DNA from: Pseudomonadota bacterium
GTDB lineage: Bacteria > Myxococcota_A > UBA796 > SXON01
Direction: 5' to 3'
Length of the DNA: 62,187 bases
Assembly: GCA_005778355.1 (NCBI GenBank)
Contig: SXON01000166.1
Location: 1 to 62,187 of the forward strand
Shown: positions 16,601-62,187 of the stretch, piece after piece
How positions within the stretch are numbered: the stretch's first letter is position 1
Layout: every line of letters starts with the position of its first letter
Made by a program: the position numbers and the translations under genes
The notes under the pieces: generated by a model
Seen by the model: the letters and a program-made list of their open reading frames with translations, nothing else
Told to the model about the DNA's origin: nothing
The model's database searches: none

Positions 16601-16809
16601 TGACCTCGGCGGCGATGGTGCTCGGCATGCTGCCCACGGCCATCGGCAGCGGCGTGGGCAGCGAGTTCCGCGCGCCGATGGCAGTGGCGGTGATCGGCGG
16701 GGTGATCTCCAGCACGTTGTTGACCCTGCTGGTCGTTCCGGTGGCCTTCGTGTGGATGGAGTGGATTCGCGCGGTGCCGGGAAGGGTGCTTCGGCGACTG
16801 CGGGGGTAG
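13693..16809 (+). CDS. RND-family efflux pump inner-membrane subunit (AcrB/HAE1-like)
   Basis: A 1038-residue pump, the usual length for the family. It starts with ISDVAIRRPVFTAMLSLAVI (first TM helix after the conserved RRP) and has the two large periplasmic loops and twelve expected TM segments. LLIDDAVVVRE near residues 415-425 carries the paired Asp (D418/D419) of the proton relay in TM4, and the TM11 region has LVTKNAILLVDGA. The GTG start at 13693 is chosen because it overlaps the adaptor stop by four bases; the longer frame upstream is a shadow of the adaptor gene. It should be a proton-driven exporter of drugs or lipophilic compounds; the substrate is not deducible. Confidence 0.93.
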   Translation: MNDGHESAAPTGHTVGGGLGISDVAIRRPVFTAMLSLAVIVLGLLGYRGLPTDLYPPVNFPILLVQTVYPGASPADIERDITDPIEDAVAGISGIQKLTSFTRDSVSLVMIQFELDEDLDAATAAVRDRVGAIESKLPDAADDPLIRQIDIGALPVLVVAVATDGSVNDTRALADERLKPLLEQVEGVGAINVLGGQEREVQVNLDLDKLAAMELGAREVMERIGYENISVPVGQFRASDYSIGVRATGQFTSVKDLSSAVVHNFDDGRLLRLGEVAEVVDGWTRPTRYVRNNGKDAVTLEVVKKSGGNTIAVAHGVVSRLNEIVPKLGHGATFEVIADQSRDIEANAHEVWIAIYYGGAMAVLVILFFLLDWRGTLISALALPTSIIGTFAMMALFGFSINMMTLMGMSLAIGLLIDDAVVVRESITRRLEAGDDPVTAASRGTAEIALAVLATTMSLVAVFVPVAFMSGMVGQFFKQFGLTIAVAVLLSLFVAFTLDPMLSSRFSVAHHGKRTGLAGLVEQFLDGLDLVYRRVLDGVLRHPFLTMGMAAVTLVCTGAVAVFLPAEFVPKQDRGEVIADIRLPVGTALQVTNDVAREREAALLAVEGVRRVYTLVGHEDQSHRVRFRVGLTDKEERPLPFSFYEEQVRAVLDTVKNGEADLQQPAMIEGLGDWPPFMIVIQGPDLEGVVREGQRVEKLVASVAGTSDVRLTVNPGRPELLVNVDRAVSADRGLPAGVVGLSARSLVEGNIVGALRDGGPEAGIRVRAAPRFVDTETELRNLLLPSPRGDIRLGDVATVTMGAGASEIVHHQRMRAVTVWSQIADGAALGGVLEEVKQRMAETPLPEGYAWEIDGQAKDMEETAGAMGLAIGVAFIFIFMVLASQFESLIHPVTLMASVPLAMVGAILGLAVTGSSISMGSQIGIILLMGLVTKNAILLVDGALVHLREGMSPAEAMRAAGPRRLRPILMTSAAMVLGMLPTAIGSGVGSEFRAPMAVAVIGGVISSTLLTLLVVPVAFVWMEWIRAVPGRVLRRLRG

Positions 16810-16849
16810 TGGGTGGGGACGCGGACCGCGGCGACGAGGGCGATGCCGA

Positions 16850-16876
16850 TGCCGCTGACGCTGACGCTGACGCTGC
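16850..16876 (+). repeat. Short GACGCT hexamer repeat in the 101-bp gap after the pump gene
   Basis: The gap 16810-16910 lies between the convergent pump and RAYT-like genes. It contains GATGCC twice followed by several GACGCT/GCTGAC hexamers. No stable terminator with a T-run is visible. Confidence 0.5.
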
Positions 16877-16910
16877 GCAGCGGAAAGTTGTCGCGACGTC
16901 GTCGGTGCGA

Positions 16911-17666
16911 TCAGGGCACGGCGAGGGCGAGACCTGCCCGGAGCCCCATCTGGAGCCCGATGGCGCGCACGAGATCGAGGCGCACTGGCCGTCTACGGTG
17001 TTTCCGGAGGGAGCGGCGGTGTACGCCGAGGAGCGTGGCGAGCTCGTCGTCGTACAGGTGGTCGGAGCCGAGTTCGATGGCGGCGCGACGGGCGTCCACC
17101 ACGAGCGGTGTGCGTCGCGACAGGTCGGGCGCGGCGACGGCGGCCGCAGCAGAGTCGATGAGCGTGGCGTGTTCGAAGCCCACGGCGAGCGTGTCGAGGC
17201 CGAGGATGTCCAGCAGTTGCTGTCGCGACACGCGCGGCAGTGCAGCGTATACGCGAGCGGGTAGCCACGGGGCGATCACCCGCAGGCCGAGGAGGTCAGG
17301 CAGGGTGGTGGCCTCGAAGCGCGGGTCGCCACCCACGGCGTGGTGTTGAGCCTGCTTGAGCACATAGAAGAAGGCGTTTTGTAGGTGCCACTGGTCGTGT
17401 ACCTCCGTCACCCGGGTGGGCTCGAGTCGCGCGCCGTCACCCCGGGCGGTGCGCACCCGGTACTGCGTGGCCGCAGCGAGTCGGTCCGGGCGCCTGGGTC
17501 CCTTGGCCACCGCGTGGGCGTGGGTATCGGCGGCACCGGCCACCAGGAGGCCGTGGTCCTTTCCGCCGGCGAGGATGGCGGCGATGAGCGCCCGGCGGTC
17601 GCCGTCGTTTTCGGCGAGTGGGGCACTGTCTTCCCGGCGGTAGACGAACTGGAGGGCCAGGGGCAT
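16911..17666 (-). CDS. REP-associated tyrosine transposase-like (RAYT, Y1 HUH superfamily) protein
   Basis: 251 residues. VYRREDSAPLAENDGDRRAL at 8-27 fits the first strand and helix of IS200-like/RAYT domains. ADTHAHAV gives a putative HUH metal motif at H49-A-H51. NAFFYVLKQAQHHAV places a candidate nucleophile at Y101, at a spacing like that of known RAYTs. The C-terminal part (LIDSAAAAVAAPDL, then LLGVHRRSLRKH and LVRAIGLQMGLR) looks like an added helix-turn-helix DNA-binding region. RAYTs are single-copy domesticated relatives of IS200/IS605 transposases that process REP hairpins. No IS ends are seen. Immediately upstream lie three GGTGAC decamers and then the 95-bp hairpin array. Similarity is by motif, not search, so this is a moderate call. 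Confidence 0.62.
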   Translation of the reverse strand: MPLALQFVYRREDSAPLAENDGDRRALIAAILAGGKDHGLLVAGAADTHAHAVAKGPRRPDRLAAATQYRVRTARGDGARLEPTRVTEVHDQWHLQNAFFYVLKQAQHHAVGGDPRFEATTLPDLLGLRVIAPWLPARVYAALPRVSRQQLLDILGLDTLAVGFEHATLIDSAAAAVAAPDLSRRTPLVVDARRAAIELGSDHLYDDELATLLGVHRRSLRKHRRRPVRLDLVRAIGLQMGLRAGLALAVP

Positions 17667-17710
17667 GTGGCCGCGCAGGGCAAGAGGCGTGCCGCCGCAT
17701 TCACGGCGTT

Positions 17711-17740
17711 GGCCGGTGACGGCGGGTGACGGTGGGTGAC
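17711..17740 (+). repeat. Three direct 10-bp repeats (core GGTGAC) upstream of the RAYT-like gene
   Basis: GGTGAC recurs at 17715, 17725 and 17735, exactly one helical turn apart, 49-75 bases upstream of the RAYT-like start on the minus strand. The spacing suits a protein binding site that could control the gene, but this is inference. The rest of 17667-17890 shows no recognisable gene. Confidence 0.45.
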
Positions 17741-17890
17741 GAGTGTCCGTCCGAGCACGACGGCCGTCCTGCAGGCAAGAGCGTCAAGAGGCGGGGCGTG
17801 ATCTTCCTGGCAACATCGCGCGGTGCCCGTGGGGCCCCGTGGGCGGGTGGGCCAGCCTGCGAACCGGGAGGGGTCGTGACGGCGGGGCGG

Positions 17891-18840
17891 CCCGAAGTAG
17901 CAAACTTCCCCCGAGGTTGGGGGGATCGGGCCGGTGGGGTGGTCGCTCACGACGAGGCCCATTCGTCCCGAGGCGCGGGGCGCGGCCCGAAGTGGCAAAC
18001 CTCCGGCGAGGTAGGTGGGATCGGGCCGGTCGCATGGTCGCTCACGATGGCTGGGAGGGCGCCAATCTCGCCGTCGTCGGCCCGAAGTGGCAAACCTCCC
18101 GCGAGGTTGTGGGGTTCGGGCCGGTCGGAGTGTCACTCGCGACGGCTGGGAAGGCGCGCAGCTGGCGGGGCGCGGCCCGTAGTGCCAAACCTCCGGCGAG
18201 GTAGGTGGGATCGGGCCGGTCGCGTGGCCACTCACGACGGCTGCGAGGGCGCGCAGCTCGCCGTGAGCGGCCCGAAGTGGCCAACCTCCGGCGAGTTTGG
18301 GGGGATTGGGCCGGTCGCATGGTCGCTCACGATGGCTGGGAGGGCGCCAATCTCGCCGTCGTCGGCCCGAAGTGGCAAACCTCCCGCGAGGTTGGGGGGT
18401 TCGGGCCGGTCGGAGTGTCACTCGCGACGGCTGGGAAGGCGCGCAGCTGGCGGGGCGCGGCCCGTAGTGCCAAACCTCCGGCGAGGTAGGTGGGATCGGG
18501 CCGGTCACGTGGTCGCTTACGACGGCTGGGAGGGTGTCCACCCGGTCGTGCGCGGCCCGAAGTGGCCAACCTCCGGCGAGGTTCGTGGGATCGGACCGGT
18601 CACGTGGTCGCTTACGACGGCTGGGAGGGTGTCCACCCGGTCGTGCGCGGCCCGAAGTGGCAAACCTCTGGCGAGGTTGCTGGGATCGGGCCGGTCGCAT
18701 GGCCACTCGCGACGGGGGGGAAGGCGTCCACCCCGCCGTGCGCGGCCCGAAGTGGCAAACCTCCGGCGAGGTTGCTGGGATCGGGCCGGTCGGCGGGCCG
18801 CTCACGACGGTGGGGCGTGCGTCCACCCTGCCGTCGTCTG
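17891..18840 (+). repeat. Tandem array: ten direct 95-bp units, each with a GTRG tetramer and a small hairpin
   Basis: The CCCGAAGT (or CCCGTAGT) landmark occurs at 17891, 17986, 18081, 18176, 18271, 18366, 18461, 18556, 18651 and 18746, an exact 95-bp period. A degenerate eleventh start is at 18841. Each unit has GTGG or GTAG just before a hairpin whose best form is AACCTC-CGGC-GAGGTT. Five units are perfect, one has a wobble pair, three lose one end pair and one is disrupted. Units 2-4 and 5-7 are near copies offset by 285 bp, showing internal duplication; units 8 and 9 share another variant. As 95 is not a multiple of three, the open frames crossing it (several of 90-520 codons on both strands) are not believable genes. 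With its flanks this fills the 1.2-kb gene-free stretch 17667-18878. Confidence 0.92.
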
Positions 18841-18878
18841 CCAAGTATGGGTTTGCATCCAGGGTAAGATCACCGCCC

Positions 18879-19664
18879 ATGTCGGTATGGCTCCCGCTAC
18901 TCGCCGATGCCCTGGCATGCGCGGCTTCCCCGGGCTCCGCCCCGCCGGTCGGCGTCACCGCCGAGCCTCCGCCCATGCGCGCCGAGAGCGCCGGGTCCGC
19001 GCCGAGCGTGCTGCCTCTCTCTGTCTACGACACTGAGCCTATCGGCACGTTCGTGGTGCTCTGGCACCCCGGCCTCGGCGCGGCCGAGCGAAACGGCGTG
19101 CGGGCCGCGTTGGCCGAGGACTTCAAGGGCGTCGTTGGCGCCGTGCCTCGGGAGGCACTCGAACGCCTCGGCGGAACCCGAATCGTCGTAAACCGGGAGT
19201 TCATCGACGCCGAGGGCGTGCGCAAACGTGGCCTCGCCACGCACCGCTCTGCCGCCTGGTTGACGGCCCATGGATTCGACGCCGCGCGCGAGGGCGTCGT
19301 CGAGGTGTACGACGTGGCTGACTACCTGCACGTCCGGGCGGGCCCGCAACCCATGGTGCTCCTGCACGAGCTGACGCACGTCCTCGCGCAGCACGCCGGT
19401 GAGGCCACACTCGCCGCCATCAGCGAGGCCTACGGGCACGCCGAGCGGAGTGGTCGCTACGACCACGTGGCCCATGCCGAGAACGCCCGCTCGGCCCAGG
19501 CCTACGCCATGAACAATGCCGGCGAGTACACCGCCGAGCTGTCCGAGGCGTACTTTGGGCGCAACGACTGGTTCCCCTTCGACCGTGCCGAGCTGCGGGC
19601 ATTCGACACCGCCGGTTGCGACGCCGTGGCTCGCCTGTGGATGGTGACCGAACCCGACTGCTGA
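18879..19664 (+). CDS. Secreted zinc metallopeptidase-like protein (HExxH)
   Basis: 261 residues beginning MSVWLPLLADALACAASPG, a short signal that may end in a loose lipobox (A-L-A-C). H163-E-L-T-H167 is a zinc-binding HExxH motif. NAGEYTAELSEAYFGRND near 213-230 supplies the distal Glu ligand and resembles a family of small secreted metalloproteases (anthrax-lethal-factor-like fold) with the trailing WFPFDRAELRAFD pattern. The start is inside a longer open frame that runs back into the repeat array; ATG 18879 is chosen because it opens the signal. It probably acts outside the cytoplasm. The substrate is unknown. A C11 peptidase gene follows after 62 bases. Confidence 0.72.
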   Translation: MSVWLPLLADALACAASPGSAPPVGVTAEPPPMRAESAGSAPSVLPLSVYDTEPIGTFVVLWHPGLGAAERNGVRAALAEDFKGVVGAVPREALERLGGTRIVVNREFIDAEGVRKRGLATHRSAAWLTAHGFDAAREGVVEVYDVADYLHVRAGPQPMVLLHELTHVLAQHAGEATLAAISEAYGHAERSGRYDHVAHAENARSAQAYAMNNAGEYTAELSEAYFGRNDWFPFDRAELRAFDTAGCDAVARLWMVTEPDC

Positions 19665-19726
19665 GCTGCGTCCCCGGTCGCATGCCGACCCTCCTTTCAC
19701 AACGGGTGACAATCCTCCGCGCTAGC

Positions 19727-60497: not shown

Positions 60498-62187
60498 TCA
60501 GGGCCTCGGTCGGCGCACGCGGATCCGCACCGCGTCGGCCCCGGAACAGTCCTCGTCGATCCCGTTGCCGACGATGTCCGTCGCGGCGGGGTTGACGGCG
60601 CCGGTGTTGTCGTTGCAGTCGGGACCGAAGGCCCAGCCGTCGTGGTCCTGGTCGTTGTCGTTGCCGTCGCAGTCCTGGTCGATGCCGTCGTACCAGAGCT
60701 CAGCGGCCAATGGCGAGATGGTGGGGTCGAACTCGTTGCAGTCGTTCCACCAGTCGGAGCCGTCGCGGTCGCGGTCGGTGTCGTTGCCGTCGCAGTCCTG
60801 GTCGATGCCGTCGTACCAGGTCTCGCTGAGCAAGGGCGACACCAGGGGATCGGTGTCGTCGCAGTCGATCACGTAGGGCGCGGCGTCGCCATCGTAGTCG
60901 TCGTCATTGCCGTCGCAGTCCTGGTCGATGCCGTCGTACCAGGTCTCCGTGTTCCCGAAGTAGATGGTGGCGTCGCCGTCGTCGCAATCGCCGTCGAGGT
61001 AGGTCACGCCGTCGCCGTCGAGGTCGTCGGGGCCCTCGCTCACGTAGCTGGGGCTGGTCCACGCGAACTCGGTGCCGTCGTCGCCGCCGTCGTCGCAGCT
61101 CGTGCCGTAGTAGCTGTCGCCATCGAGCTGCACCTGGACGTAGAGCCACGAGGGCATGTCGCCGGCCGACACGCTGAGCGAGTAGGTGTCGCCACCCTCG
61201 TCGGTGAGCTCGGTGCTGCCCGACGGCGTGACGATCTCGACCACATCCACGTAGGCCGCCCAGTCGCCACCCACGCTCACCAGGATGTCGAGCTCCTGAC
61301 CGGTGGGCACGGGGATGTCGTCGCCGAGGTCGCCGAGCGTGGCGCCCCCGCTCGAGTAGCTGACCACTACCGGCACCATGGGCCCGGTGGTGGCGATGGT
61401 GTTTCGGGACACGATCGCGTCGTAGATAGCGGAGCGGTCGAAGGTGTCGCCCTCGTCGAGCACCACCAGGGTGTGCCCGCCGCCGAAGGGGTGGTTGGTG
61501 TGCTCGGAGTCGGACTGGCACACGTTGCCGGGGCGCGTGTCGTGGCTGTCGGAGCCGGCGAGAAAGCCAAGCTGCAGCGCGTAGCTGTCCGGGTCGATCG
61601 CCTCGTGCACCGTGCCGCTCTCCTCGGCGCCGGACCACATCTCGTCGTACGCCCAGTCTGCGCTGAGGCTCTGGCCGTGGCCCGAGTAGATCTCCACCGC
61701 CGGCTGGTAGCCCTGGTCGTGACACGACCAGTCGGTGGGCATCGGTAGGCTCGCCGCGGGGTGATGCGGGATGAGCAACATGTCGCCGTAGGCGGACGAG
61801 AGGCCGTCGGCCCAGTCCCAGATGGCGTCGCAACTGTCCACGACGGTGTCGGTGGCCGACACCGCCTGGAACTCCTCCAGGGTGAGGTTGGCGAGCGTGG
61901 CGTCGTCGCCGAAGAACATCATCGTCTTGTGGCCGAGGCGCGCGTCGATCGACAACGCCACCCACACCTCGCCGCCCGGGATCGTGACGAAGTTGCCGTC
62001 GTCGTTGGCGGCCAGCGCCATCGCGAGCAGCTCGGTCCACTCGTCACTGGCCATCTCCACCTGGTTGCCGTTGACGTGGTCGTTCACCGAGATCCAGTCG
62101 AGGCCTGCCGCCCTCGCGTCGTCGAACACCGTGTAGAAGTCGCCGCACACGCCGTCGCAGGTGCCCGAGAGGTCGTCGGAGCCGCCA
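60498..62187 (-). CDS. PHP/DUF3604-like exported protein with MopE-type repeats, 5' end off the window
   Basis: At least 562 residues; the frame is open to the edge (GGSDDLSGTCDGVCGDFY), so the start is missing. WISVNDHVNG, LIPHHPAASL and GFLAGSDSHDTRPGN carry the His/Asp sets of a PHP-type metallophosphoesterase domain. A beta-sandwich region follows. The last 190 residues hold four Asp/Cys-rich units ending in WYDGIDQDCDGND (three nearly identical, one diverged), the MopE/thrombospondin-3-like pattern that binds calcium or copper. Export is inferred from the repeat class. A basic RVRRPRP end is present. Confidence 0.78.
   Translation of the reverse strand, partial: GGSDDLSGTCDGVCGDFYTVFDDARAAGLDWISVNDHVNGNQVEMASDEWTELLAMALAANDDGNFVTIPGGEVWVALSIDARLGHKTMMFFGDDATLANLTLEEFQAVSATDTVVDSCDAIWDWADGLSSAYGDMLLIPHHPAASLPMPTDWSCHDQGYQPAVEIYSGHGQSLSADWAYDEMWSGAEESGTVHEAIDPDSYALQLGFLAGSDSHDTRPGNVCQSDSEHTNHPFGGGHTLVVLDEGDTFDRSAIYDAIVSRNTIATTGPMVPVVVSYSSGGATLGDLGDDIPVPTGQELDILVSVGGDWAAYVDVVEIVTPSGSTELTDEGGDTYSLSVSAGDMPSWLYVQVQLDGDSYYGTSCDDGGDDGTEFAWTSPSYVSEGPDDLDGDGVTYLDGDCDDGDATIYFGNTETWYDGIDQDCDGNDDDYDGDAAPYVIDCDDTDPLVSPLLSETWYDGIDQDCDGNDTDRDRDGSDWWNDCNEFDPTISPLAAELWYDGIDQDCDGNDNDQDHDGWAFGPDCNDNTGAVNPAATDIVGNGIDEDCSGADAVRIRVRRPRP
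60661..60941 (-). repeat. 123-bp coding repeats of MopE-type units
   Basis: An almost identical 35-base block recurs at 60661, 60784 and 60907, exactly 123 bp (41 codons) apart. It encodes the WYDGIDQDCDGN core of consecutive units. The identity over this length suggests recent duplication or gene conversion. Confidence 0.85.

Follow-up and report, generated by a model that had tools for sequence, protein, structure and literature searches.

A 62,187-nucleotide stretch of DNA from a Pseudomonadota bacterium (GenBank assembly GCA_005778355.1, contig SXON01000166.1; GTDB lineage Myxococcota_A, UBA796, SXON01), which we call in its whole length the window, carries the gene of a 251-residue protein with an HUH motif beside a tandem array of ten direct 95-bp units. 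We propose that this pair is probably a RAYT-like nuclease together with a cognate, helically phased array of its own recognition sites. Similar pairs of gene and array recur in the protein family. The sequences point this way through a predicted fold with its catalytic residues, the association of gene and array, the direct orientation and palindromic nature of the units, and their spacing by whole turns of the helix; they also include gene-less copies elsewhere in the genome and a close relative in which the whole block is absent. The palindromic units are most likely the cognate sites that the protein recognises.

The protein and its family

The gene is the open reading frame (ORF) at 16911-17666 on the minus strand. 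A sequence-only reading of this region had picked out a candidate HUH motif, H49-A-H51, together with Tyr101, and both are present: the H49-A50-H51 codons lie at 17514-17522 and the codon of Tyr101, the candidate nucleophile, at 17364-17366, each on the minus strand. The relationship to RAYT proteins that was suggested then also holds. Comparison of the family profile with E. coli RAYT and ten Y1_Tnp proteins by hhalign gave an E value of 2.5e-6 (probability 88.8) and placed H49, H51, and Y101 in register with the E. coli protein. The AlphaFold2 (AF2) model of the window protein has a mean pLDDT (predicted local distance difference test) of 94, and a Foldseek search of the PDB with this model supplied the structural match to Y1/HUH proteins that had been anticipated: rank 1 is 4er8, a RAYT with a REP (repetitive extragenic palindromic) hairpin (E 3.1e-3, probability 1.00, template-modelling (TM) scores 0.40/0.56), and structures of IS200-family TnpA appear from rank 16 on. 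Pairwise BLAST detected nothing, and NCBIfam gave no match to the window protein.

The catalytic residues are strongly conserved. In an alignment of 24 relatives (A1), D47, H49, H51, H94, Y101, and H109 are invariant; across 100 full-length members H49 is retained in 96, H51 in 98, and Y101 in 96, with all three together in 95. The middle residue of the HUH motif is Ala in the window protein, not a large hydrophobic residue, and 23 of the 100 members have Gly or Ala there. At position 105, four residues after the tyrosine, Q is found in 76 members and N in 20; Q is followed by P in 20 of 100 and N in none, which means that the Y---NP motif does not occur. Positions 108 and 109 are both His in 49 members. 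The column of E. coli W94, which hhalign aligns with E82, has no W in any of the 24 rows of A1, and only 9 of 100 members have a W anywhere in residues 78-86. Near the C terminus, Pfam gives weak HTH_23 and Xre-like matches below the curated cut-offs in the window protein and HTH_23 in 13 of the 24 relatives; the AF2 model has helices there, and the predicted helix-turn-helix (HTH) region, residues 187-224, corresponds to 16995-17108 on the minus strand. From alignment and model, we take the window protein to be a divergent Y1/HUH protein, a relative of RAYT, with a C-terminal HTH. A defence system was considered as its identity and rejected, as PADLOC found no defence-system match among 24 members.

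Two more paralogs in the genome of the window look intact and share 44% and 38% identity with the window protein, and a third is broken; the near-identical copies of IS200/IS605-like elements were not encountered. The family is present in at least 24 of 63 genomes of the order, at least 27 of 71 of the class, and at least 32 of 377 of the phylum sample, with at least 16 matches in the richest genome; one relative lies in a Deltaproteobacteria metagenome-assembled genome, and the lineage is probably myxobacterial. Carriage by plasmids or phages was rejected, since tblastn against plasmids and phages gave no match to the window protein. At L058 2979-4959 on the minus strand (G028 C368), two HUH genes stand in tandem and their proteins are 90% identical, which may reflect duplication of the entire element. 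The gene set used below leaves out some fragments in G019:C130, G003:C32, G022:C4, G009:C1, G069:C132, G376:C47, and G296:C38.

The array and its palindromic units

Tandem Repeats Finder (TRF) places the array at 17887-18836 (plus strand; period 95, 10.0 copies, score 991), and all nine unit-to-unit spacings are exactly 95 bp, in agreement with the ten direct repeats counted earlier. The palindrome of unit 1 begins at 17889, 222 bp past the start codon, which ends at 17666; the distance given earlier was 225 bp.

Symmetry within each unit takes the form of an imperfect 44-bp palindrome built in two steps: an outer stem GGCCCG/CGGGCC, internal loops of 8 nt with AAGTG conserved on one side, an inner stem close to AACCTC/GAGGTT, and a 4-nt loop. 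On the plus strand the ten palindromes occupy 17889-17932 (unit 1), 17984-18027 (unit 2), 18079-18122 (unit 3), 18174-18217 (unit 4), 18269-18312 (unit 5), 18364-18407 (unit 6), 18459-18502 (unit 7, identical to unit 4), 18554-18597 (unit 8), 18649-18692 (unit 9), and 18744-18787 (unit 10). The sequence-only reading had described GTGG or GTAG close to a small stem-loop. The tetranucleotide is there (AAGTGG in 7 of the 10 units, AAGTAG in one, and GTAGTGCC in two, where GTAG stands in a shifted register), but the small stem-loop is really a part of the 44-bp palindrome.

Units 5 and 6 are followed by the same spacers as units 2 and 3, and one spacer sequence follows both unit 7 and unit 8. Recurrence of this kind shows that the window array was enlarged by ordinary duplication. 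CRISPR was set aside for the same region, the spacers being repeated and not unique (no dedicated CRISPR search was made), and Rfam gave no match at E <= 0.1 across window positions 16700-19700. The folding energy is modest (z -2.6 for the 44-mer and -1.6 for the whole unit, on a hand-typed consensus unit) and makes weak proof of a hairpin; therefore, the case for the hairpin rests on comparison between relatives.

Unit sequences differ from paralog to paralog, and the pairing of their arms persists. At total lengths of 38-52 bp, the outer 8-bp arms are fully paired in 28 of 72 units, whereas 30 shuffled sets average 2.5 and never exceed 6. These 28 units have 27 different arm sequences, and 22 of them are 44-48 bp long. 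With a threshold of at least 7 of 8 pairs, the count is 63 of 72 (shuffles: mean 27.6, maximum 35); some units are without strong arms by the 8-bp measure. The expected conservation of the hairpin is thus seen between paralogs. Two words are enriched in units relative to shuffles, AAGTSG (19/60 vs 3.5) and AASTCG (18/60 vs 3.8). GTRG, proposed earlier as the defining mark, is not, with 33 of 60 units against a shuffle mean of 34.7, and GTRG with a small hairpin is ruled out as the mark of the family. Copies within arrays are direct: no reverse-strand copy of a 26-base core was found at 77% identity in 61 of 64 rows.

Association of gene and array across the family

To measure the association, TRF arrays of period 45 or more were counted around 127 distinct genes and fragments, of which 100 are full-length. 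An array lies within 1 kb of 55 of the 100 full-length genes and of 64 of the whole set of 127; among those with 600 bp or more of known sequence on each side, the count is 42 of 69. The 223 kb that lie within 1 kb of the genes contain 74 arrays (3.31 per 10 kb) and the 287 kb beyond contain 5 (0.17 per 10 kb), an enrichment of about 20-fold. A control of 800 kb from other stretches of the carrier genomes, free of HUH genes, has 13 arrays (0.16 per 10 kb). Judged from these sequences, a tandem array beside the HUH gene is a recurring association of the family; the earlier suggestion of a REP/RAYT system with its array beside the gene stands in this respect, but the case is not a singular one.

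Several HUH genes (e.g., L057, L060, L061, L070, and L077) stop no more than about 270 bp short of a contig end. If arrays break assemblies, as this placement suggests, the array counts would be lower bounds. Canonical Y1_Tnp genes of the same class, a small sample, occur in 12 of 67 genomes and not in that of the window; arrays of period 45 or more accompany 3 of 18 such loci within 1.5-kb flanks, with periods of 52/83 (L180), 45, and 58.

A ladder of whole helical turns

The commonest array periods are 51-53, 62-65, 72-74, 83, 135, 156-157, and 177 bp, and 45, 50, 56, 95, and 98 bp are also seen. Over 72 arrays the Rayleigh R at 10.5 bp is 0.81, and of 20000 sets given a jitter of up to 10 bp none scores as high; the 34 arrays with periods above 53 bp give an R(10.5) of 0.77, also reached by 0 of 20000 jittered sets. 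In 66 of the 72 arrays, where 22.2 are expected, the period deviates from a multiple of 10.4 by no more than 1.6 bp, against 4 of 14 control arrays (Fisher 1.7e-6); the value 10.4 was picked after viewing the period scan and the same value was applied to the controls. Spacings between adjacent copies show the same regularity (R 0.79 over 87 gene-distinct values). An earlier census also included six arrays with periods of 36-41, dropped from the second by its threshold of 45; with them (n=66), R(10.5) is 0.76, again with 0 of 20000, and the best period in a scan of 8-14 is 11.65 (R 0.77).

In the control arrays the ladder is weak or absent (R 0.10-0.18, n=14), and their periods are mostly multiples of 3 (12 of 14 vs 35 of 72 near the genes), as those of coding repeats would be. 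By eye, three of the four on-ladder control arrays resemble units of the family. They are palindrome-like, at L248 13161-13360 and 19278-19424 and at L249 7014-7153, with periods of 51, 63, and 51 and no HUH gene in the 20 kb; perhaps they are gene-less satellites of the same kind.

Gene-less palindromes and an empty site

A covariance model of the palindrome, run on the genome of the window with 150 of 7438 candidates scored, finds at least 35 sites at at least 10 loci, of which at least 25 at at least nine loci lie outside the window. No HUH ORF was found in the 4-6.5 kb around each of these nine loci, two of which are near a contig end. C31 has three units at 95 bp, C124 has spacings of 84, 106, and 84, and C142 has 84; C45, C86, C249, C36, and C208 each have two palindromes 147 bp apart. 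At C45, C86, and C249 of this genome, G000 (L051 2511-2810, L052 2495-2720, and L054 2402-2640), the two 44-bp palindromes are near-perfect and the inner stretch is similar by eye; with no HUH gene nearby, these composites look like a small non-autonomous mobile element.

In the related genome G008, whose pump gene is 93% identical to that of the window over 372 residues, homology stops with the pump and resumes 97 bp on, around the start of the clostripain-family gene. The junctions, L201 2619 and 2717, correspond to window 16809 and 19693, which by DNA comparison leaves a block of 2.88 kb (16810-19692) absent in G008, comprising the HUH gene, the array, and the ORF at 18879-19661. In G001 the order pump, C11 peptidase, ArsR-methyltransferase is retained, with neither HUH gene nor array at that place. 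Gain of the block in the lineage of the window is the simpler reading.

The third component of the block, ORF 18879-19661 on the plus strand (261 aa), has a HELTH metalloprotease-like motif and no Pfam match; of the 21 other genomes of the family, two contain relatives of it. Synteny traced through this ORF was abandoned, as neither the pump nor the C11 gene adjoins its relatives at the two loci found. Far from the block, at window 60629-61028, is a 123-bp tandem repeat, perhaps encoding an Asp-rich repeat protein.

Comparison with known systems

Several kinds of REP-associated arrangement have been described, among them REPtrons, TIRYTs, alternating BIMEs (bacterial interspersed mosaic elements), and tandem reiteration (PMC6006769, PMC3733652, PMC2817692, and PMC8266576). 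The nearest is the E. coli RAYT, or TnpA_REP, with its REPtron (subclass 2.2 in PMC6006769), which has in common with our system the Y1/HUH fold and the active-site motifs, as well as a gene flanked by palindromes that are also found elsewhere in the genome. At the E. coli rayT locus, REP cores lie on both strands and the array unit is 101 bp. Unlike there, the palindromes here are two-step, many of them 44-48 bp, without a shared GTRG foot; the arrays are direct, head to tail, and on a helical ladder; and the protein has a C-terminal HTH and lacks a W where E. coli has W94 (A1). The GT[AG]G foot of hairpins of RAYT class 2 is seen in the units of the window and is not enriched family-wide. 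As in RAYT class 2, palindromes are dispersed in the genome, but they are few for a REP family, such families usually having more than 100 copies per genome (PMC2817692). Because the Y---NP motif, the W motif, and GTRG do not mark the family, we do not file the family in RAYT class 2 proper.

TIRYTs and TnpA-Y1 subclass 2.1 share with the window family longer proteins, a C-terminal HTH of the HTH_23 kind, and flanking repeats that are unlike GTAG REPs. According to PMC3733652 and PMC6006769, subclass 2.1 carries Y---NP with no REP-like sequences found nearby, and TIRYTs are bounded by terminal inverted repeats, most of them with GGGGWSAS. In the present family, N followed by P is absent from all 100 members and the palindromes are direct and in tandem within arrays, which flank 8 of 100 genes on both sides. 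The Y---Q--HH motif of subclass 1.2 (PMC6006769) matches Y101, Q105, H108, and H109 of the window protein. According to the same paper, however, proteins of subclass 1.2 and IS200 TnpA (1.1) have about 150 residues, 1.2 is without REP, and 1.1 comprises true insertion sequences, whereas proteins of the present family have about 250 residues and are accompanied by arrays. Among the papers listed by searches of a mostly non-subscription literature, no title or abstract opening describes helical phasing of RAYT-linked arrays, which does not show its absence from print.

A proposed mechanism and its alternatives

We suggest a chromosomal element of two parts, a Y1/HUH RAYT-like single-strand-DNA endonuclease and a block of 44-bp palindromic recognition sites. 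The HUH domain would bind the palindrome folded as a hairpin, and the C-terminal HTH would bind a duplex half-site. Whole-turn spacing of direct repeats suggests that neighbouring protomers could line up along the same face of duplex DNA. Hairpins might be cut and rejoined in single strands by the HUH/Tyr site, and Tyr101-mediated nicking and strand transfer could copy units locally and seed gene-less satellites; such a one-face duplex assembly combined with HUH/Tyr cutting would explain both the local multiplication and the satellites. More tentatively, the family might form a separate HUH class whose partner is a helically registered platform of direct palindromic sites in place of scattered REPs, with the geometry of protomer assembly controlling array growth and satellites; this we regard as possible and short of probable.

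A number of observations weigh against the proposal. As to the protein, Foldseek gives no match at E <= 0.001, the TM score over the query is 0.40, and tRNA-His guanylyltransferases (Thg1) occupy ranks 2-15. The profile comparison with Y1_Tnp/RAYT that had been envisaged succeeded with hhalign and failed with Pfam, where Y1_Tnp does not match the window protein and matches 1 of 24 relatives, at an E value of 0.084 that does not pass the cut-off. As to the association, 45 of the 100 full-length genes have no TRF array, and 31 of the 100 have less than 600 bp known on at least one side. As to the ladder, off-ladder spacings occur (70, 116, 142, and others), the mean cosine of 22 spacing differences within genes is 0.44 (null SD 0.15), and the 95 bp of the window itself is 1.4 bp off nine turns of 10.4. 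A cruder de novo palindrome finder shows no ladder (R 0.26 at 10.5, genes with arrays); it takes palindromes within and between units, and array-based spacings were used instead, with this negative standing next to them. The canonical Y1_Tnp locus L180 1924-2108 (G064), with periods of 52 and 83, is on the same ladder, which may thus reach beyond the family of the window protein. In the repeat group of the window, stems are nearly invariant and covariation is no higher than in shuffles, leaving conservation of the hairpin to the comparison between paralogs. Finally, the empty site cannot separate with certainty a gain here from a loss in G008, and the block absent there includes another ORF besides the HUH gene.

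Plasmid iterons are direct repeats set whole turns apart, next to a gene whose product binds DNA; at about 20 bp they are not long palindromes, and the replication initiators that they serve have other folds. The arrays described here resemble them in repeat direction, in spacing, and in standing next to the gene of a DNA-binding protein, and differ in their long palindromes and in a window protein without a plasmid match. An iteron-like control array, in which the HTH binds duplex DNA cooperatively and represses its own gene or ties loci together while the HUH site serves another task and no repeats are moved, would favour such direct repeats at whole turns, and the C-terminal HTH is available for this role. 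The arrays are found upstream of 31 of the 100 full-length genes, as an operator would be, but equally often downstream (32 of 100; both sides in 8), which suits an operator poorly. Gene-less arrays and paired palindromes elsewhere, along with retention of all three catalytic residues in 95 of 100 members, also count against this explanation, which we consider rather unlikely.

We judge it improbable that the units are ordinary non-autonomous REP-like repeats of a RAYT, with blocks produced by slippage or unequal exchange and whole turns reflecting how the second copy originally went in, with both copies on one face, and not a present function. The duplicated blocks within the window array, the dispersed palindrome copies, and the RAYT relationship are all in keeping with such an origin, as is the tandem reiteration of REPs reported in Pseudomonas (PMC3733652). 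Against it, turn class shifts at least 19 times on a quick tree of 55 proteins, and 13 tip-disjoint pairs of unlike class, which share no tips but may share branches, differ by near-whole turns more than chance would give (mean cosine 0.62, 32/50000). Moreover, some arrays combine within themselves spacings that differ by one or two turns: 51+62 (L135), 62+83 (L072), 135+146 (L059), and 156/157+177 (L069). Repeated change of turn class together with mixed arrays suggests a repeated constraint rather than one founding event. That the arrays are passive satellite DNA, produced by slippage in GC-rich intergenic regions and lying near the gene by accident, is hardly credible: array enlargement by duplication is visible, but the enrichment beside the HUH family already contradicts this, as do palindromy above shuffles and the weak or absent ladder of the control arrays.

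Implications

The window array is one instance of a trait that recurs in the family, palindrome arrays mostly phased with the helix. This bears on how REP-like sequences multiply, and on whether RAYT proteins work one by one on single strands or assemble on duplex DNA. Spacing that changes often, and mostly by whole turns, amounts to a natural experiment, implying that neighbouring sites are read together as duplex. RAYT-like systems can also evade standard annotation, as does the window protein with its missing Pfam Y1 match, even in a lineage where one genome carries so many members of the family.

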